DNA from: a virus
DNA: 21,040 bases
Direction: 5' to 3' (one strand)
IMG/VR virus record: IMGVR_UViG_3300048793_000151
Coordinates: 1 to 21,040 of that record
Below, piece after piece: positions 1 through 21,040 of this stretch. Under the pieces are notes generated by a model. The model was not told the origin of the DNA, ran no database searches, and saw only the letters and a list, made by a program, of their open reading frames with translations. The stretch's first letter is position 1. Every line of letters begins with the position of its first letter. Both the position numbers and the translations under genes were made by a program.

Positions 1-403
1 GGCTTTTATCCGCGTTCGAAGTGCCCGACTGAAGTCGGTACTCTAAACGCGTGAATCCAAATGCCAGCTTCGCTCTGTGCTCCGGCAACAGCTCCGCTTT
101 GCGCTCGCCGAGCGAGAGAACCTGAAATTGGTTGTGCGCTTCCGTCAGGTCCTCGCGATCGATGGAATCGAGATTCAAGAGCACCAGCAACGGCACGGGC
201 ATCGTCAATGTCCCAAACTCAGTAATCGCCGAGCGCATGATCAAATCCTGATACTGCGTCGGGTTCTGCGCCGCGGGATCGCTATCGAGGTTGAAAATGT
301 CTTTGCCGGTCAGGCGGTGTCCAAAGGTGACGCGGCGGTGCGTCACTTTCTTTGCGTCGGTGTAGCCGCCGATGAGTTCGATTGTGTGTGTTTGGTTTTC
401 CAT
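1..403 (-). CDS. Phage tail assembly chaperone-like protein (Mu gp41 position), 3' end off the window
   Basis: The frame reads from ATG at 403-401 to the left edge without a stop, about 134 codons. It begins MENQTHTIELIGGYTDAKKV and contains a leucine-rich middle (MPVPLLVLLNLDSIDREDL) followed by a charged helical part. This resembles the small tail assembly proteins encoded just after the tube gene in Mu-like and P2-like phages, which chaperone the tape-measure protein. Family assignment rests on position and general character, not on a diagnostic motif. The visible C-terminal end (RLEYRLQSG, from 48-23) is the in-frame translation of the GTTTAGAGTACC hairpin repeat found elsewhere in the window, so the original C terminus may have been extended or replaced. 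It lies 187 bp after the tube gene, with a hairpin element between them. Confidence 0.6.
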   Translation of the reverse strand, partial: MENQTHTIELIGGYTDAKKVTHRRVTFGHRLTGKDIFNLDSDPAAQNPTQYQDLIMRSAITEFGTLTMPVPLLVLLNLDSIDREDLTEAHNQFQVLSLGERKAELLPEHRAKLAFGFTRLEYRLQSGTSNADKS

Positions 404-405
404 CT

Positions 406-581
406 CATTCTCACCTGGCTTCAGCCAGGTGCTCTCATTCTCACCTCGCTTCAGCGAGGTGATCGGGGCGGCGCATCATGCGAGGAGCCGTTTTAACGGC
501 TTACAAAAGAGGGAAACCGTTGAAACGGTTACGGACTCTCAAGGGATTTCCCCTGCACCTTGCTGAAGCAAGGTGAGAATG
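406..581. repeat. Composite hairpin element, ATTCTCA-flanked, five hairpins
   Basis: This non-coding gap holds, in order, hairpins at 415-430 (CCTGGCTTCAGCCAGG), 444-459 (CCTCGCTTCAGCGAGG), 487-500 (GCCGTTTTAACGGC), 515-530 (AACCGTTGAAACGGTT) and 558-573 (CCTTGCTGAAGCAAGG). The outer hairpins carry the same flank (ATTCTCA / TGAGAAT) facing inward. The three outer stems differ at two positions, but both arms change together. The element lies between the tube and chaperone genes and could affect mRNA folding; no function is proven. Confidence 0.85.
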
Positions 582-590
582 AGAGGGGCG

Positions 591-1025
591 CTAAATCGCG
601 ACGGCGTCTTCCGGCAGCACCACGAACGTGAACATGCTCGCGTTCGTCGAGCCTCCCTGGAGCTGGTCTTGCTCAAAGCTTTTCGGTACGCACTTGAGCA
701 GCTCGTAGGTGTAGACCGGAACGATGCCGTCTTCATCAAACTGGATCACGCGCATGCCGCGCCGGTCGGTGACGATGCCGCGAATGAAGTCCTGGAGCCA
801 CTGCATCAGCTCAGTGCCCGTCTGGTTCAGCGCCTGCGCGTGTTTGAAGGTCACCGCGCCGACCTCAAAGTGCCCGCGCACGATGTGCGGGTTGGGGCGG
901 TTGCCTTCGAAAAATTTCACTTCCGTGTGATCGATCTTGAGGCCCGAAACTTCGGAAGCTCTGATGGCCGTTACGCCGTCGATCTCGACCGTGAAATATT
1001 GTGCGCTGGCGCCTTGTCCCGGCAT
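591..1025 (-). CDS. Phage tail tube protein, T4 gp19 family
   Basis: The 144-residue protein matches the length and character of the T4-like gp19 tail-tube family (PF06841), which also includes inner-tube proteins of extracellular contractile injection systems. Its N-terminal part (YFTVEIDGVTAIRASEVSGL) is a typical start of that fold. Next comes a helical segment around residues 60-85 (HAQALNQTGTELMQWLQDF) and a C-terminal strand pair (YELLKCVPKSFEQDQLQGG, then FVVLPEDAV). Tube hexamers stack inside the sheath and form the DNA channel. The start ATG at 1025 follows an AAGGAGAG ribosome site. The gene directly follows the sheath gene, the expected order. Mu itself uses an unrelated tube family (gpM), so the tail here is mosaic. 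Confidence 0.88.
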   Translation of the reverse strand: MPGQGASAQYFTVEIDGVTAIRASEVSGLKIDHTEVKFFEGNRPNPHIVRGHFEVGAVTFKHAQALNQTGTELMQWLQDFIRGIVTDRRGMRVIQFDEDGIVPVYTYELLKCVPKSFEQDQLQGGSTNASMFTFVVLPEDAVAI

Positions 1026-10264: not shown

Positions 10265-10548
10265 ATCTTTTCAGAAGTCAGCGGGTAGCGGTCAGAGGTC
10301 AGAGGTCAGACAGTCAGTGAGACCGCGCGCGTCCCGCCCGCTCTTTTCTGGTTGCCCCTGGCTCTTTGCCCTTAGCGCTTGGCCCTTTGCTCTTTGCGCT
10401 TTGCCGCTCTCTACTCCGCACTCTATCTCACAATACTTTTAGCCTCAACCGAAATCTTTTCAGGACTAAGAGAGATCAAGTCTCAGATCTCAAGTCTCAG
10501 ATAATCTCGGTGCTCAAATCTCAGATCTCAGATTATCTCGAATCTCAG
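10265..10548. repeat. Heptamer repeats of three families upstream of the portal gene
   Basis: CAGAGGT-type units (10268-10312) lead to the GTCAGTGAGACC core. CCCTTTG-type units (TCTTTGC, CCTTAGC, GCTTGGC) run at about 10356-10410. ATCTCAG-type units (AGTCTCAG, ATCTCAG, ATTATCTCG) run at about 10474-10548. No terminase or other phage gene is present here. Confidence 0.85.
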
Positions 10549-10807
10549 TAATGGGTCAGTTTGCTTTTAAGTCTTATTCACACCGCGGCTTTAGCCCGGT
10601 GTCACAGCGAACCCCGACGGCCCAAACCGTTTTAACGGTTTTTCGAGGCTAAACCGTTAAAACGGTTAGGGAAAATCAGGTGGCCTACTCTATCACCGGG
10701 CTAAAGCCGCGGTGTGAATGAGAGCACACAAGCGGTCGCCGCTAACGTCCTGGGGGACGAGTTACAGATTCGAGATGACTCGGGAAATCTTTCAAACTGA
10801 CCCACTA
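10549..10807 (+). mobile_element. MITE-like element, copy A
   Basis: This 259-bp element is bounded by TAATGGGTCAGTTTG and the inverse of TAGTGGGTCAGTTTG (15-bp TIRs with one difference). Inside are 25-bp perfect inverted arms at 10577-10601 and 10694-10718, each holding a CGGCTTTAGCCCG hairpin. Inner AAACCGTTTTAACGGTTT and AAACCGTTAAAACGGTT hairpins lie between them. It has no ORF. The second copy lies inverted at 13564-13838. Terminal TA at both ends could be a TA target duplication of the IS630/mariner kind (inference). Confidence 0.87.
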
Positions 10808-10866
10808 CGCCAATCTCAAATCTCAGATCCCCCCGTCTCGCCCTCCCGCCTCCCCAACACACACGA

Positions 10867-11208: not shown

Positions 11209-12152
11209 CTTCCTGCCTCCTGGAAGCTCGTTGCGGCTTCCGTGGGTGTTAATAGCAACCGCCATGCCGCGCGCGCACGTCCGCCCGCAAATGGCACAAA
11301 AGACAGCCCTTTAAACAAGAAAACAGTCCACCGCTGACAACGTGACTCCCCGTTGCCCGTATAGCCCTACACCAATTCGGGTATAAAACGACTGGCGATA
11401 GCAGGCAGATAGCCCGGATTATTCACGTGAAGCAGCTCGCAATAGAATCCGTGAAGCCGACGGCACTAAAATAGCCCAGCACTCAAGGGCTGGGTCTGGA
11501 GTTTTGGACGTTTCGGCTCGTAAATCCTGCCAACTTCAGTTGGTAGATGGTTGACGCCAACCTACAACTCAAGGGCGCTCGACATCAATCCCACCAACTT
11601 TTGAGTTGGTGGATGGTTCATGCCAACCTATTGAGCATTTGGGATGAGGAACGGCCCTCGCGGAGCGTGAATAGCAATCAGGCCCGCAGGGCCGGCATTC
11701 AATAGCCACGTCCGTCAGGCCGTGGGTTAAGTTCGCCAGTAATATCCATGAGGCCCGACGGGCAGGCACCGAAACGAACGTCAGACTCCTGGTGGCAGAA
11801 CAGACTGGACCTACTATCACCGAAGGTTGTAGTGCCGCGCCTGCGGCGCTCATTGGCGGGTTTCGTACGGATTACCACGCCCTTACGAGACCGTGTGAAA
11901 ACTCGCAGTTTTCACACGGTCTCTTACGGACGTGGCTATTGAATGACGGCCCTTCAGGCCTCACCAGGTCGTTGTCATCTGACGGTCTCCCTGAAACGGC
12001 GCCGCCAAGACAGATCGCTTCATAAGTTACAGCCGCTTCACGGACTGCAACTTGCCACTCGAGGTGCCCCGTTCAATAACTCGGGCTAACTCCGCTCCAA
12101 AACCAAGGCCATAACGCCTGCCCACTGACCACTGACCACTTCCCGCTTCCGC
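11209..12152. other. Gene-free, palindrome-rich region
   Basis: No ORF here looks like a real gene. The stretch holds a CCCAGC...GCTGGG hairpin at 11475-11494 whose flank (AAAATAGCCCAGC) recurs at 20978-20990. It also has two direct copies of a CCAACTT...AACCTA unit at about 11529-11566 and 11592-11631, each with its own hairpin, then the inverted element at 11680-11961, and ACTGACC heptamers at 12122-12136. Confidence 0.7.
11680..11961. repeat. Inverted-repeat element with 39-bp arms and a perfect internal hairpin
   Basis: Arms 11680-11718 and 11923-11961 are reverse complements with about five differences, including ATTCAATAGCCACGTCCGT. Inside lies a perfect 17-bp stem at 11887-11923 (GAGACCGTGTGAAAACT, loop CGC). 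Other GGCCC-type small hairpins occur at both ends. No ORF of quality lies within, so it may be a non-autonomous mobile element or a structured RNA locus. Confidence 0.75.
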
Positions 12153-12404: not shown

Positions 12405-12691
12405 ACTGGAACCTCGCGCGCGCACTGCCGACCCTCTCGCTTATACCAGCCCCAACGTCCCAAGAGCAAGGAAACAGGTCAGCGCTGGCACCCTGAAGGG
12501 GGTGCCAGAGAGTAGCCGGTGGTCGGAGCGCTTCGCGAAGACCACCGGATCCGTGAAAATAGATTCGCACCCCGAAGGGGTGCCAGAAGGATATCTCCAA
12601 TGGGAGAAGGACATTTCAGACGCCTGCGGACACTTGGGTTTCGCCTAAAGAGACGTTGACTTCCCCAGAGCACTGGTAGCAGGATAGTAGT
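12405..12691. other. Intergenic region with one CACCC-type repeat element
   Basis: This 287-bp gap is mostly taken up by the element at 12488-12586. A plausible promoter for the downstream antitoxin gene would lie in 12600-12690, but no strong consensus boxes are seen. Confidence 0.5.
12488..12586 (+). repeat. CACCC / TAGCCGGTGGTC element, copy 1
   Basis: A hairpin (GGCACCCTGAAGGGGGTGCC) is followed by AGAGAGTAGCCGGTGGTCGG, CTTCGCGAAG, ACCACCGGATC and a second hairpin (GCACCCCGAAGGGGTGCC). Copies lie at 19903-20002 (same strand) and 20741-20837 (inverted). Loops and spacers differ while GTGGTC/GACCAC pairing is retained in copies 1 and 3 and changed in copy 2 (GCGGTC opposite GACCAC). Confidence 0.85.
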
Positions 12692-13437: not shown

Positions 13438-13563
13438 TCTTATTCTCACCCGGTTTCAACCGGGTGGACACGGAGGCATCTGGGATTCGCCGAACCGTTT
13501 CAACGGTTTCTCGCGTTCTTATCACGCGGCCCGGCTCGCAGTGGCGCTATGGGAAACCGTTAG
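13438..13563 (+). repeat. Truncated ATTCTCA hairpin element, cut by MITE copy B
   Basis: ATTCTCACCCGGTTTCAACC begins a fourth stem variant of the element at 406-581 (arms CCCGGT/ACCGGG). An inner hairpin AACCGTTTCAACGGTT follows at about 13495-13510. The second inner hairpin stops after AAACCGTTAG exactly where copy B begins. The missing right half is not found beyond copy B. Confidence 0.75.
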
Positions 13564-13838
13564 TAGTGGGTCAGTTTGAAAGATTTTCCGCGTTATCCTG
13601 AATCTGTAACTCGTCCGCCAACGTTAGCGGCGATCGCTTGTGTTCTCTCATTCACACCGCGGCTTTAGCCCGGTGGCAGAGTACGCCGCCTGATGCCCCG
13701 AACCGTTTTAACGGTTTCGAATGGGTCGAATGCTTGAGACTCGAAAAACCGTTAAAACGGTTTCGGCCGTCGGGGCTCGCTTTGACACCGGGCTAAAGCC
13801 GCGGTGTGAAATAAGACTAAGAGCAAACTGACCCATTA
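13564..13838 (-). mobile_element. MITE-like element, copy B (inverted)
   Basis: This 275-bp element aligns end to end with the reverse complement of copy A, with scattered substitutions and about 16 extra bases in the central loop. TIRs are TAGTGGGTCAGTTTG (13564) and the inverse of TAATGGGTCAGTTTG (ending 13838). The 25-bp inner arms (13651-13675 and 13786-13810) match those of copy A exactly. There is no ORF. Copies A and B bracket about 2.8 kb of small genes in a composite-transposon-like layout. Confidence 0.88.
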
Positions 13839-13971
13839 CCAGACCTAAAGAGCCAAACAGAAACGCAGCGATCTGGAGATGCAGTGGGTGGATTCGTCAT
13901 TTGACTTGACGTGAGCGGTTGCTGAAGCAATAAGTCTTTTTTTGCCTACTCTCGATCAAACGAACTGAGTA

Positions 13972-14322: not shown

Positions 14323-15108
14323 GTAAGAGCGGTTTAAGTCGTCTCTTCCGTGTCGAAGTTGATTCCAGCGTTTTCGGAATACTTCAATTCCCATCTTGCG
14401 TCAGTTCGCACCACTTACGACCAAGATGCGGCGAAAAGCCCTCGACTGTAGTCGAGGGATACTTAGATCCAGCCTACCCACAACGCCGTCAGGACGACCC
14501 AACAATGCCGTCGACGGCAGTCGGCGGATGATTAAGATCCCACCTGTTCCCTTGCACCAACACCGGCTACCTGGTTCACAGTGTTGGGTCGCGTATTGCT
14601 GGCGAGAGTCAAGCGCTACCTTGAACGACGACGGCGCTGATAGTCGTAAGTAAGAGGTTGGACTTTAACAAATCCGCCGACTGCCGTCGGCGGCATTTCA
14701 GGTGGTTGGGTGGGTGATGGTTGTAGGTTGGCTAATAACCATCCCCAAACTGCCGTCTGGGGCTTTGGAACCACTTATTCCCGTCGTAAGTTAGCTCTTA
14801 TAGGGCGTTGCCCTGGGCTGGATCTTGCGAACGCCTTCGGCGTTACTCCAATTCAGGATTGTTCACACGCTCACAACTCCCGTCGGTGGCATTTAATTTA
14901 AATTGCACCTCGCTCTCCTTGTCTGTCCGTGCCAATCTGTGGCCCAAAACCCTTCCCTTATGCCTTCCCGTATGATTGACCCGCCATCGCCTCAGGCATA
15001 TCATGTGCCAGCCTTCCTGCTCTGGTTGTAATTGGTTACAGTGTGACCAGACGATTAATGATTTGGGTTGACGGCAACCAACTCATGAAAATCGAGGAGT
15101 CCGAAATC
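14323..15108. other. Gene-free region with variable-stem hairpins; upstream region of the FG-GAP gene
   Basis: No convincing ORF is seen. Hairpins include 14439-14458 (CCCTCGACTGTAGTCGAGGG) and the element at 14655-14787. There is also a block at about 14806-14856 (GGGCGTTGCCCTGG, AACGCCTTCGGCGTTACTCC) that recurs inverted near 19791-19851. The last 200 bp before the FG-GAP gene are AT-richer and should hold its promoter. A ribosome site (GAGGAG, 15093-15098) precedes ATG 15109. Confidence 0.7.
14655..14787 (+). repeat. ACTGCCGT hairpin element, copy 1
   Basis: The segment GGTTGGACTTTAAC, a hairpin CCGCCGACTGCCGTCGGCGG (14674-14693), a GGTGGTTGGG-like spacer, a TAACCATCC flank and a second hairpin (14743-14762) match 19512-19645. 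The first stem is identical in both copies while the second stem differs in both arms. Confidence 0.8.
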
Positions 15109-18100
15109 ATGAAGCAATTATTCCACCGCATCCCTGTCTCTCGGCGTCCGGCGAGGTTGATAGCGCTGGTGTTGACGACGGCGCTCCTGGCTGCCGCTAT
15201 TAGCGGCCCGATCGCGGGCGCCGCCGGGCCCAGCTTTGCCGCCAAACAGGACTTCGCCACGGGCGCCAACCCGTTTTCCGTCGCGATGGGCGATCTGAAC
15301 GGAGATGGCAAGCTCGATCTGGTCATCGTGAACAATGGCGCCAACACCGTGTCGGTGCTGCTCAACACCACCACACCGGGCGCCTACCCGCCCAGCTTTG
15401 CCGCCAAACAGGACTTCGCCACGGGGGCCAGCCCGTTTTCCGTCACGGTGGGCGATCTGAACGGGGATGGCAAGCTCGATCTGGTCATCGCGAACTCTGG
15501 CGCCAACAATGTGTCGGTGCTGCTCAACACCACCGCTCCGGGCGCCGCCACGCCCAGCTTTGCCGCCAAACAGGACTTCGCCACGAGCTCCTTTCCGGAA
15601 TCCGTCGCGGTGGGCGATCTGAACGGAGATGGCAAGCTCGATCTGGTCATCGCGAACTCGAATTCCAACTTCGTGACGGTGCTGCTCAACACCACCACAC
15701 CCGGGGCCTTCCCGCCCACCTTTGCCGCCCATCAAGAGTTCGCCACGGGCGCCAACCCGACATCCGTCGCGCTGGGCGATCTGAACGGTGATGGCAAGCT
15801 CGATCTGGTCATCGCGAACCAGGCTGCCAGCACCGTGTCGGTGCTGCTCAACACCACCGCTCCGGGCGCCGCCACGCCCAGCTTTGCCGCCAAACAGGAC
15901 TTCCCCACGGGCGCCAACCCGTATTCCGTCGCGGTGGGCGATCTGAACGGTGATGGCAAGCTCGATCTGGTGATCGCGAACTTTGGCGCCGCCAACACCG
16001 TGTCGGTGCTGCTCAACACCACCGTTCCGGGCGCCGCCACGCCCACCTTTGCCGCCCATCAGGACTTCGCCACGGGCGGCCTCCCGTTTTCCGTCGCGGT
16101 GGGCGATCTGAACGGAGATGGCAAGCTCGATCTGGTCGTCGCGAACTATAATGACAACACCGTGTCGGTGCTGCTCAACACCACCGCTCCGGGCGCCGCC
16201 ACGCCCAGCTTTGCCGCCAAACAGGACTTCGCCCCGGGCTCCGGCCCGCAGTCCGTCGCGATGGGCGATCTGAACGGAGATGGCAAGCTCGATCTGGCCG
16301 TCGCGAACAATGGTGGCGCCAACACCGTGTCGGTGCTGCTCAACACCACCGCCCAGGGGTCACCCACGGCGAACTTTACCGCCAAACAGGACTTCGCCAC
16401 GGGCACCACCGCAAGATCCGTCACAATGGGCGATCTGAACGGGGATGGGAAGCTCGATCTGGTCATCGCGAACCAGAGCGACAACACCGTGTCGGTGCTG
16501 CTCAACACCACCGCACCGGGCGCCTTCCCGCCCACCTTTGCCGCCAAACAGGACTTCGCCACGGGCGCCAACCCGCATTCCGTAGGGGTGGGCGATCTGA
16601 ACGGTGATGGCAAGCGCGATCTGGTCATCGCGAACACTGGTGACAACACCCTGTCAGTGCTGCTCAACACCACCGCTCCAGGCGCCGCCACGCCCACCTT
16701 TGCCGCCCATCAGGACTTCGCCACGGGCGGCGCCACCCCGTATTCCGGCACGGTGGGCGATCTGTACGGTGATGGCAAGCTCGATCTGGTCACCGCGAAC
16801 TATAATTCCAACACTGTGTCGGTGCTGCTCAACACCACCGCTCCGGGCGCCGCCACGCCCACCTTTGCCGCCCATCAGGACTTCGCCACGGGCGTCAACC
16901 CGATTTCCGTCACGGTGGGCGATCTGAACGGGGATGGCAAGGTCGATCTGGCCGTCGCGAACAGTAGCGACAACACCGTGTCGGTGCTGCTCAACACCAC
17001 CACACCGGGCGCCGCCACGCCCACCTTTGCCGCCAAACAGGACTTCGCCATTGGCTCCGCCCCGTTTTCCGTCGCGGTGGGCGATTTGAACGGGGATGGC
17101 AAGCTCGATCTGGTCATCGCGAACTATTTGGACAACACCGTGTCGGTGCTGCTCAACACCACGGCTCCGGGCGCCGCCACGCCCACCTTTGCCGCCCATC
17201 AGGACTTCGCCACGGGCGCCAGCCCGTATTCCGTCACGGTGGGCGATCTGAACGGGGATGGCAAGCTCGATCTGGTCACCGCGAACTCTCATGCCAACAC
17301 CGTGTCGGTGCTGCTCAACACCACCGCACCGGGCGCCGCTACGCCCACCTTTGCCCTCAGACAGGACTTCGCCACGGGCGCCACCCCGGTATCCGTCACG
17401 GTGGGCGATCTGAACGGGGATGGCAAGCTCGATCTGGCCGTCGCGAACTTTGGCTTTGGCGCCAACTCCGTGTCGGTGCTGCTCAACGCCACTGTTTCGC
17501 CCACGGCAGCGAATGGTTCTGTGAGCGGAACGATTACCGACAGCAACGGCGCGTCGCTCGCGGGCGTGACGGTCAATCTCAGCGGCGCCGAGTCGCGTGA
17601 GGCGATCACTGACAATAGCGGCAACTACAGTCTCGACAACCTCGAGACGAACGGCTTCTACACCGTGACGCCGGCGCGCGCGAATTATAGTTTCAGCCCG
17701 GCGGACCGCAGTTTTAGTTTGCTGGGTGTGAACGCCGAAGCGTCGTTCACTGCCGCGACCAACGACGATCACGTAAACGCGATCGACACGACGGAATACT
17801 TCGTGCGACAGCAGTATCTGGACTTCCTGGGCCGCGAGCCGGATGAAAGCGGCTTTGCCTACTGGAGCGATCAAATCAATCGCTGCCATGGCGACGCGGC
17901 TTGCCTCAGCACGCAACCGATCGAGGTGTCGGCGGCGTTCTTTGCCAGCGCCGAGTTTCAACAGAGTGGGTCGTTTATCTACCGGATGTATAAAGCCGGC
18001 CTGGGCCGCCAACTCTTTTACGCTGAATTCACCAGCGATCATGCACAGGTCCTCGGTGGCGCCGATCTCGAAGCGAACCAGGCCGCTTTTACCAATAGTT

Positions 18101-18549
18101 TTGTTCAACGCGCGGAGTTCGTCTCGAAGTACGCCGTGAACACAACCGCCGAAACCTTCGTTGACGCGCTGCTGCAAAACATCGTCGGCACTGGCGCCGA
18201 TCTCTCGAAGGAACGCGACACCCTGATTGCGCTCTACCTGGGAGCGCAGGCATCCCTGCCTGCCAGTTCGGGTCTTGGTCTGATTCAAGCCCGCAGCGCC
18301 GTGCTGCAGGCCGTAGCGAAAAATGCCGATTACCAATCCGCCACGCTCAACCCGTCGTTTGTGCTGATGGAATACTTTGGCTATCTGCGGCGCGACGCGG
18401 ACGCGGGCGGATATCAATTCTGGCTGAATGCGCTGAACAGCGCGCCCGGCAACTATCGCCGTCTGGTCTGTTCGTTCGTTACGTCGGCTGAGTATCAGCG
18501 GCGCTTTAGCTCCGTGGTTACGCACAGCAATAGCGAATGCGGGCCCTAG
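15109..18549 (+). CDS. Secreted FG-GAP/VCBS repeat protein with Cna-B-like and DUF4214 domains
   Basis: I choose ATG 15109 (MKQLFHRIPVSRR...) over an upstream GTG because GAGGAG precedes it and a signal peptide (RLIALVLTTALLAAAI) follows. The 1146-residue product has 14 units of about 54 residues (about 42-795), each with GDLNGDGKLDLV and VSVLLNTT. The DxNxDGxxD loop is a calcium-binding FG-GAP blade motif, and 14 units would suit two seven-bladed propellers. Unit 10 has Y for the loop N (GDLYGDGK). Next comes a carboxypeptidase-regulatory/Cna-B-like domain (SVSGTITDSNGASLAGVTVN, about 800-880). A DUF4214 region follows (YLDFLGREPDESGFAYW, about 893-1146). Likely role: exported surface or matrix adhesion protein. 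A repeat element is read in frame as GAQASLPA near residue 1047. Confidence 0.93.
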   Translation: MKQLFHRIPVSRRPARLIALVLTTALLAAAISGPIAGAAGPSFAAKQDFATGANPFSVAMGDLNGDGKLDLVIVNNGANTVSVLLNTTTPGAYPPSFAAKQDFATGASPFSVTVGDLNGDGKLDLVIANSGANNVSVLLNTTAPGAATPSFAAKQDFATSSFPESVAVGDLNGDGKLDLVIANSNSNFVTVLLNTTTPGAFPPTFAAHQEFATGANPTSVALGDLNGDGKLDLVIANQAASTVSVLLNTTAPGAATPSFAAKQDFPTGANPYSVAVGDLNGDGKLDLVIANFGAANTVSVLLNTTVPGAATPTFAAHQDFATGGLPFSVAVGDLNGDGKLDLVVANYNDNTVSVLLNTTAPGAATPSFAAKQDFAPGSGPQSVAMGDLNGDGKLDLAVANNGGANTVSVLLNTTAQGSPTANFTAKQDFATGTTARSVTMGDLNGDGKLDLVIANQSDNTVSVLLNTTAPGAFPPTFAAKQDFATGANPHSVGVGDLNGDGKRDLVIANTGDNTLSVLLNTTAPGAATPTFAAHQDFATGGATPYSGTVGDLYGDGKLDLVTANYNSNTVSVLLNTTAPGAATPTFAAHQDFATGVNPISVTVGDLNGDGKVDLAVANSSDNTVSVLLNTTTPGAATPTFAAKQDFAIGSAPFSVAVGDLNGDGKLDLVIANYLDNTVSVLLNTTAPGAATPTFAAHQDFATGASPYSVTVGDLNGDGKLDLVTANSHANTVSVLLNTTAPGAATPTFALRQDFATGATPVSVTVGDLNGDGKLDLAVANFGFGANSVSVLLNATVSPTAANGSVSGTITDSNGASLAGVTVNLSGAESREAITDNSGNYSLDNLETNGFYTVTPARANYSFSPADRSFSLLGVNAEASFTAATNDDHVNAIDTTEYFVRQQYLDFLGREPDESGFAYWSDQINRCHGDAACLSTQPIEVSAAFFASAEFQQSGSFIYRMYKAGLGRQLFYAEFTSDHAQVLGGADLEANQAAFTNSFVQRAEFVSKYAVNTTAETFVDALLQNIVGTGADLSKERDTLIALYLGAQASLPASSGLGLIQARSAVLQAVAKNADYQSATLNPSFVLMEYFGYLRRDADAGGYQFWLNALNSAPGNYRRLVCSFVTSAEYQRRFSSVVTHSNSECGP
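18238..18264 (+). repeat. GGGAGCGCAGGCATCC element inside the DUF4214 coding region
   Basis: CTGGGAGCGCAGGCATCC is identical to 10219-10236. It is read as LGAQASLPAS between two DUF4214 helices without shifting the frame. Confidence 0.85.
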
Positions 18550-20456: not shown

Positions 20457-21040
20457 GTGAACGTCCTGTTCTCAGCCTCTTAACTTCTGGGGAGAGATAG
20501 GTGCGCCGCACTTCCATTAGACCAAGCGTAAACCATCTATCACATTCTGGGGTTACAAAAGCCTTCTTTTTTGGGGCAGTTTTTGTGGTCTTTTTCGTGG
20601 GCTAAAATAAATATAGACAGGGCCACTAAATTATGACCAAAACATTACCCCACTACCCAGCCTTCCGAACAATTCCTTGATGGCATTAAAATCAAGAATA
20701 TGTCGGAAGATGTCCTTTCCCGGTTGGCGATATTCTTATGGCACCCCTTCAGGGTGCGGATCTATTTCCATCGGATCCGGTGGTCTTCGCTAATCGCTCC
20801 GACCACCGGCTACTCTCTTGCACCCCTCCGGGGTGCCCTTTGGAGGCCGCGGCGGGCCTGGGATCCTGAACGACCCGCCCTTATTCGACGAACTTTGGAG
20901 ACACCACACTAGCCTGAGTTATTCATGAAGGTCTGCGGCAAGACCTGGGAACACGCAGTCCGCGAAGCGGACGGTTGAAAATAGCCCAGCGATTCATCGC
21001 TGGGGGCGGGCCGTTTGTTCCCGAACGCAGTCCGTGAAGC
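20457..21040. other. Right-end region without a supported gene
   Basis: An AT-richer segment (20560-20640, T tracts and TAAAATAAATATAGA) could carry a promoter for either strand. CACCC element copy 3 follows. Then comes a unit homologous to 11440-11494, with AAAATAGCCCAGC and the hairpin CCCAGCGATTCATCGCTGGG at 20985-21004. No ORF here looks coding. Confidence 0.6.
20741..20837 (-). repeat. CACCC / TAGCCGGTGGTC element, copy 3 (inverted)
   Basis: GCACCCCTTCAGGGTGC, ATCCGGTGGTCTTCG, CGACCACCGGCTACTCTCT and GCACCCCTCCGGGGTGC are the inverse of copy 1, with different stem and loop bases. Confidence 0.83.

Follow-up and report, generated by a model that had tools for sequence, protein, structure and literature searches.

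Our analysis indicated that the hairpin array lying between two tail genes of a Mu-like prophage is very probably a non-autonomous, REPIN/MITE-like mobile element, consisting of the terminal hairpins of an IS200-like HUH/Y1 transposase gene (tnpA) and lacking the transposase itself. Judged from its sequence, the element appears to be moved by a small transposase from soil Acidobacteria that acts on single-strand DNA. The array is located in a 21,040-nucleotide stretch of the IMG/VR record IMGVR_UViG_3300048793_000151 (the window), which contains part of the prophage, whose minus-strand genes encode portal, capsid E, gp37, sheath, and T4-gp19-like tube proteins, and, besides these genes, repeat-rich DNA. 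We infer an Acidobacteriota-type host for the window. Encoded at 15043-18549 (+) is a 1168-aa protein with FG-GAP repeats, a carboxypeptidase-regulatory-like domain, and DUF4214 that is probably displayed on the host surface, which points to host DNA on this side of the record. The array and its neighboring genes are as follows.

2-403 (-): phage tail gene extending past the window edge, probably a tail assembly chaperone by its position
403-584: array insertion of five hairpins, an extra outer hairpin plus an OUT-IN-IN'-OUT' element
403-432 (+): extra outer hairpin, with foot TCTCATTCT (403-411), stem CACCTGGC (412-419) / GCCAGGTG (424-431), and loop TTCA (420-423)
433-584 (unstranded): complete dyad-symmetric four-hairpin element OUT-IN-IN'-OUT', TCTCATTC ... 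GAATGAGA
442-461 (+): OUT hairpin, CACCTCGC - TTCA - GCGAGGTG
486-501 (+): IN hairpin, AGCCGT - TTTA - ACGGCT
515-530 (-): IN' hairpin, AACCGT - TGAA - ACGGTT, with the loop TTCA on the minus strand
556-575 (-): OUT' hairpin, CACCTTGC - TGAA - GCAAGGTG, followed by the foot AGAATGAGA, with the loop TTCA on the minus strand
591-1025 (-): T4-gp19-like tail tube gene of the Mu-like prophage operon (Pfam Phage_T4_gp19, E = 3.7e-16)

Read on the plus strand, the loops are TTYA in the left hairpins of the array and TGAA in the right ones (general form TRAA); the 433-584 element mirrors itself and so reads alike on the minus strand. Exact matches to the pattern ATTCTCACC-N4-TTYA-N4-GGTG were found in the window at 407-431 (+), 437-461 (+), 556-580 (-), and 13442-13466 (+), and the reversed control pattern gave none. 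The three sister hairpins at 406-581 and the fourth copy reported in the original prediction are thus real, with the fourth located at 13442 rather than 13438. The stems are paired as described, over 8 bp rather than 6 (CACCTGGC/GCCAGGTG, CACCTCGC/GCGAGGTG, CACCTTGC/GCAAGGTG, and, at 13442, CACCCGGT/ACCGGGTG); the in-step change assigned to positions 3-4 is indeed compensated, but the three stems within 406-581 differ at pair 6 of 8 only (G-C, C-G, and T-A). The 13442 copy differs from the first window stem at pairs 5 and 8. The unit 406-581 was drawn too narrowly, as the array also includes the two inner hairpins and conserved outer feet at 403-410, 433-440, and 577-584. Folding of 403-586 gave z = -8.5 as DNA and z = -10.2 as minus-strand RNA, and an Rfam search returned no family matching 406-581. 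The inner stem AGCCGT of the IN hairpin is also present at another locus (L126).

The end of the array abuts the ATG of the chaperone gene (403-401, minus strand), and the tube-chaperone gap of 187 nt is almost entirely array. Four homologous operons (L194-L197), whose tube and chaperone genes share 34-47% and 43-58% identity, respectively, with those of the window, have no such array between the two genes, which are adjacent in L194, separated by about 10 nt or less in L196 and L197, and separated by about 90 nt without these hairpins in L195. Because the array is missing between these two tail genes in the relatives, it is an insertion in the Mu-like prophage operon and, on this comparison of sequences, is younger than the operon. 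The same operons bear on an RNA-level explanation, in which the transcript needs the hairpins at each locus as a terminator, mRNA stabilizer, processing site, or small RNA. The array does sit between two co-directional phage genes, the fold predicted for RNA from the operon strand is strong, and an influence of REPs on mRNA stability has been documented (PMC6006769); however, homologous phage operons do without it, and similar arrays flank transposase genes, as described below.

Further arrays of the same style were found elsewhere in the window.

10581-10714 (unstranded): sister array of four hairpins whose outer stems are bulged, CACCGCGGC-TTTA-GCCCGGTG
13442-13562 (+): second, half copy, with OUT CACCCGGT-TTCA-ACCGGGTG (13447-13466) and IN AACCGT-TTCA-ACGGTT (13493-13508)
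13655-13806 (unstranded): second copy of the sister array

In the half copy, IN' is interrupted where an unrelated miniature element with the ends GTAGTGGGTCAGTTTG / CAAACTGACCCATTAC has inserted. The sister array at 10581-10714 is nested in a miniature element at 10548-10808 with the ends GTAATGGGTCAGTTTG / CAAACTGACCCACTAC, and its second copy is nested in one at 13563-13839, the element that broke the half copy; these two miniature elements, each with a nested four-hairpin array, lie in opposite orientations with the ends GTARTGGGTCAGTTTG, and a similar one with these ends occurs in the metagenome-assembled genome (MAG) RYN_26 (L016). Short palindromes of the same style, such as CACCCTGAAGGGGGTG, CACCCCGAAGGGGTG, and CGCCGACTGCCGTCGGCGG, are also present outside the arrays at 12460-12600 and 14440-14760.

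A pattern scan covering one genome per prokaryote species matched at least 119 stretches. Among the matches listed, copies with perfect stems were overwhelmingly from MAGs of Acidobacteria group 4/Pyrinomonadaceae (RYN_26, AA26, AA24, AA21, Centralia_MAG_6, ES-bin-189, and others), most of which share the four-hairpin anatomy. Most non-Acidobacterial genome matches were set aside as chance, their arms being mostly unpaired (0-2 pairs), as were 14 matching IMG/VR contigs with 0-3 of 4 inner pairs and no perfect stem; the hairpin element is not a feature of phages in general. RYN_26 (G001) has 129 ends, many in +/- pairs, G003 has 53, and other genomes have far fewer, as counted in MAG assemblies that are fragmentary and possibly mixed. 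In G005 (C9:38326/38452) and G007 (C327, C356, C624, and C906), several copies have two ends with different, individually folded stems, for example, CTGC with a T.T mismatch at one end and TATC at the other.

The link to a transposase came from two of these MAGs, ES-bin-189 (L145/L164) and RYN_26 (L146/L165), in which a Y1_Tnp gene lies inside an OUT-IN-tnpA-IN'-OUT' array, the outer stems around tnpA being imperfect in L146. The encoded TnpA is a 150-aa HUH/Y1 protein (Pfam Y1_Tnp, 7.6e-22) that passes the NCBIfam IS200/IS605 model transpos_IS200 (NF033573; 62.2 bits, cut-off 55) and fails the REP transposase model (NF047646; 24.3 bits, cut-off 80), and phmmer found no relative in the PDB at 1e-3. 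In an alignment of 31 TnpA sequences, H56, H58, and Y116 are invariant, and the Y---Q--HH motif of subclass 1.2 is conserved (Y116, H123, and H124 in 31/31; Q120 in 30/31), a resemblance to that subclass at the level of the motif. Relatives with 65-90% identity have the outer stems CACCGGGC (L171), CCCCAACC (L167 and L170), CCCCGACC (L168), CACCGCGA (L198 and L199), and bulged CACCGCGGC (L169), the last being the outer stem of the array at 10581-10714, and their inner stems are AACCGT, AACCAT, and AAACTGT. Distant relatives (36-44%) mostly have the foot AATTG, with the stems CCACTAGC, CCTCCAGC, CCTCCGTC, CCACGGCC, and CCGTCTGC and TTYA/TRAA loops, and the relatives in Bacteroidetes (G163 and G165) have the same flanking TTYA/TRAA hairpins. 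Overall, an 8-bp TTYA/TRAA hairpin was present on at least one flank in 37 of the 46 TnpA relatives (both flanks in 26, one in 11), against 3 such hairpins in 140 kb of unrelated DNA; of the nine without one, some are truncated at contig ends and some may use other loops. The feet of the TnpA-linked hairpins are CATT[CA][TA], [AG]ATTG, or AATAG, and the GT[AG]G tag is absent. Along the tree of the 46 proteins the outer stems change in a lineage-linked manner with their pairing kept.

Only one close copy of tnpA per genome was found in G005 and G001, against the 129 ends in the latter. Among the flanks read in 162 genomes of the class, no tnpA carried the window outer stem CACCTNGC; the window element is tied to tnpA through sister stems that share its foot, loop, and inner hairpin. 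Tandem clusters of outer hairpins, resembling BIME arrays, were seen next to the transposase gene at L185, L167, and L182. Dyad symmetry and high copy number might also be expected of independent palindromes that a host DNA-binding protein recognizes and that lie near transposases by coincidence, and gyrase, IHF, and Pol I are known to bind classic REPs (PMC6006769). We consider such sites a highly improbable explanation, as a double-strand binder would keep the sequence, whereas pairing and loop are kept here with the sequence free, and the hairpins recur beside tnpA in most of its relatives. The inverted four-hairpin anatomy and the tnpA link led us to put aside readings as integron attC, CRISPR, or coding sequence.

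Covariation of the stems was assessed in an unbiased set from 119 genomes, in which the 5' foot and loop were fixed and both arms were free. At least 7 of 8 Watson-Crick pairs were formed in 33 of the 83 distinct arm pairs, which together hold 393 such pairs against 277 ± 11 after partner shuffling (none of 5000 shuffles was as high), and 10 stems were perfect against 1.1 when the arms were shuffled. The hairpin stems are therefore not due to chance. In a gap-free alignment of 26 distinct outer hairpins, 97.6% of cells are paired, a percentage biased by the choice of most stems for pairing, and the informative part of this set is the variety of pair types: 7 of the 8 pairs show changes on both sides, with a covariation score of 0.723 against 0.179 ± 0.029 in shuffles that keep sequence kinship and at most 0.133 when slid. 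In line with the original prediction, changes in these stems are compensated, and what is conserved is the fold with its loop rather than the stem letters. The inner stems likewise vary in matched pairs, with the TTYA/TRAA loop kept. T.T was the commonest mismatch in the unbiased set (9 stem types, with no A.A), and the conserved T.T stems are CACCCTGC/GCTGGGTG and CCGTCTGC/GCTGACGG; as a special feature it was rejected after a wider distinct-stem count gave 2 stems with 9 occurrences, mostly from one family.

A different pattern was observed within a single genome. In 100 of the 129 RYN_26 ends, the consensus stem CACCCGGT/ACCGGGTG was exact in 53, and a further 36 diverged from it by at most four differences, giving 89 near-consensus ends. 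In the diverged ends, 58 pairs were changed on one side and 3 were compensated, the latter against an estimated 0.4 or so expected from independent changes. Resident copies in this genome clearly decay uncompensated, although there may be a small excess of compensated changes. This excess, together with the three window stems that are all perfect and differ at a single pair, would suit template switching in a quasi-palindrome, by which one arm is copied from the other and compensation reflects mutation bias rather than selection. As an account of the whole pattern, such copying is quite unlikely, since the one-sided changes were left uncorrected in the very same copies and distinct stems are tied to TnpA lineages; contrary to what had been suggested, it does not dominate at resident copies, but it may be the route by which source copies gain a matched change. 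The one-sided decay also weighs on the RNA-level explanation, which we regard as unlikely: selection for an RNA at each locus would prevent it, and the sole Rfam matches in the window, to Acido-Lenti-1, are themselves to a transposase-linked family. The original prediction took covariation to mean that the fold, not the sequence, is kept, and mostly uncompensated genome copies to mean the opposite. The fold is kept between subfamilies and TnpA lineages and not at each locus, and mostly uncompensated copies were found within RYN_26 and not between lineages. Compensation between lineages combined with one-sided decay within a genome therefore indicates that the fold is kept in the transposing source copies, and a mobile element accounts for both patterns because further copying is limited to those copies whose fold is intact.

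For this mobile element, we propose the following scenario. The outer hairpin (foot CATTC[TA], 8-bp stem, and TTYA loop) and the inner hairpin would constitute the ends of the tnpA gene, and TnpA, acting in trans, would recognize the TTYA-strand hairpin in single-stranded DNA by its fold, loop, and 5' foot. Nicking beside the hairpin and joining of the ends could then copy or move the short element. Stem letters would matter only while the arms pair, allowing compensated drift in transposing lineages, and the drifting stems would become lineage marks that travel with TnpA. Once inserted, a copy would escape selection and decay one arm at a time; one such copy may have inserted between the genes for the tail tube and the tail chaperone in the prophage. 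In vitro, the transposases of REP systems act on single-stranded hairpins, on one strand only, and in the Marinomonas system the T, T, and A of a TTNA loop are strongly selected for cleavage, replacement of the stem by its complement has a moderate effect, and stem mismatch is harmful (PMC8266576). The natural pattern found here, a fixed TTYA with a free but paired stem, matches that system, and we infer a similar mechanism by analogy. The natural series of stem variants could be used to probe what such transposases recognize.

The two Rfam matches at the gathering score in the window both belong to one family with the same outer-plus-inner anatomy.

11680-11725 (-): Rfam Acido-Lenti-1 (RF01687) match, outer and inner hairpin, a further family with the same architecture
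20957-21004 (-): Rfam Acido-Lenti-1 match with the same outer and inner hairpin anatomy

Acido-Lenti-1, which Rfam lists as an sRNA, was first published as a candidate RNA (PMC2864571), and a literature search for its reinterpretation found none. The RF01687 model comprises an outer 8-bp hairpin, a conserved GGCTAatt tail (opposite strand AATTAGCC, corresponding to the foot), and an inner hairpin, and its other strand reads as the foot AATAG followed by CCCAGCGA-TTTA-TCGCTGGG. Seven genomes of the Pyrinomonadaceae family have 0-69 matches each, in many cases arranged as divergent pairs with 100-170 bp between them, and matches lie on both sides of Y1 transposase genes in G003:C829, G095:C158, and G118:C49 (L206) and on one side in G001:C29, G008:C46, G118:C19, and G118:C60. 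In its outer 8-bp and inner hairpins, divergent pairs, and flanking of Y1 transposases, Acido-Lenti-1 resembles the window element, whereas it has its own foot, stem, and inner hairpin. These sequence features suggest that the model describes a single terminus of an element of this type, so that the RNA interpretation would give way to, or be joined by, that of a transposon end. Covarying stems are standard evidence for functional RNA, and the strong covariation here most likely reflects the action of a single-strand DNA transposase on folded DNA. Between-lineage compensation, one-sided decay within a genome, and Y1 linkage are together proposed as a test for distinguishing DNA hairpins from RNA, and Acido-Lenti-1 and similar candidate RNAs merit re-examination. 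On a broader reading, whose chances we judge to be evenly balanced, a large, as yet undescribed REPtron-like class would be widespread in Pyrinomonadaceae and Bacteroidetes, with a subclass 1.2 Y1 transposase that reads the foot, TTYA, and any stem that pairs, the stem serving as a drifting mark and its covariation being mistaken for RNA, as in Acido-Lenti-1.

Several known mobile systems share parts of this organization. IS200/IS605 elements and their miniature derivatives (PATEs; PMC3119063, in the part consulted) similarly combine an HUH/Y1 transposase, subterminal hairpins, and non-autonomous short copies, whereas the present elements have mirror-image ends (TTYA left and TRAA right) and a transposase gene that is not multicopy. 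TnpA-Y1 subclass 1.2, mostly found in Cyanobacteria and Bacteroidetes, is described as "generally without typical terminal IS200 secondary structure features" and with REP "no" (Quentin 2018, PMC6006769). Our TnpA resembles this subclass in its Y---Q--HH signature, length of about 150 aa, proximity to IS200 transposases, and low copy number, and differs in the double hairpins flanking the gene and in its occurrence in Acidobacteriota and two Bacteroidetes genomes, thereby adding terminal structures to a subclass thought to be generally without them. In the consulted part of Di Nocera 2013 (PMC3733652), TIRtrons/TIRYTs, which include a sharply defined Acidobacteria group, are RAYT-like genes without GTAG repeats, flanked by inverted repeats that may build repeat families, some double palindromic. 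The genera named there are Terriglobus, Koribacter, Acidobacterium, and Granulicella, and that portion of the text is silent on stem covariation and a TTYA loop rule; compared by description rather than by sequence, these TIR-flanked relatives may be an earlier glimpse of part of the present element. The REP/RAYT systems, including REPtrons, REPINs, and BIMEs (Nunvar 2010, PMC2817692; Bertels & Rainey 2011, PMC3116915), are similar in the Y1 gene between inverted palindromes (in the relatives, not in the window), one transposase with many short copies, dispersed inverted doublets, transposase-specific stems, and complementary stem mutations. The last three are known for RAYT/REP (PMC2817692, PMC3733652, and PMC6006769), so the behavior for which no named repeat family had been recognized does have a precedent in RAYT-associated REPs (Nunvar et al., PMC2817692). 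As judged by sequence, the element described here differs from REP/RAYT in having no GT[AG]G foot, a double hairpin at each end, and a transposase with the subclass 1.2 motif that fails the REP transposase model.
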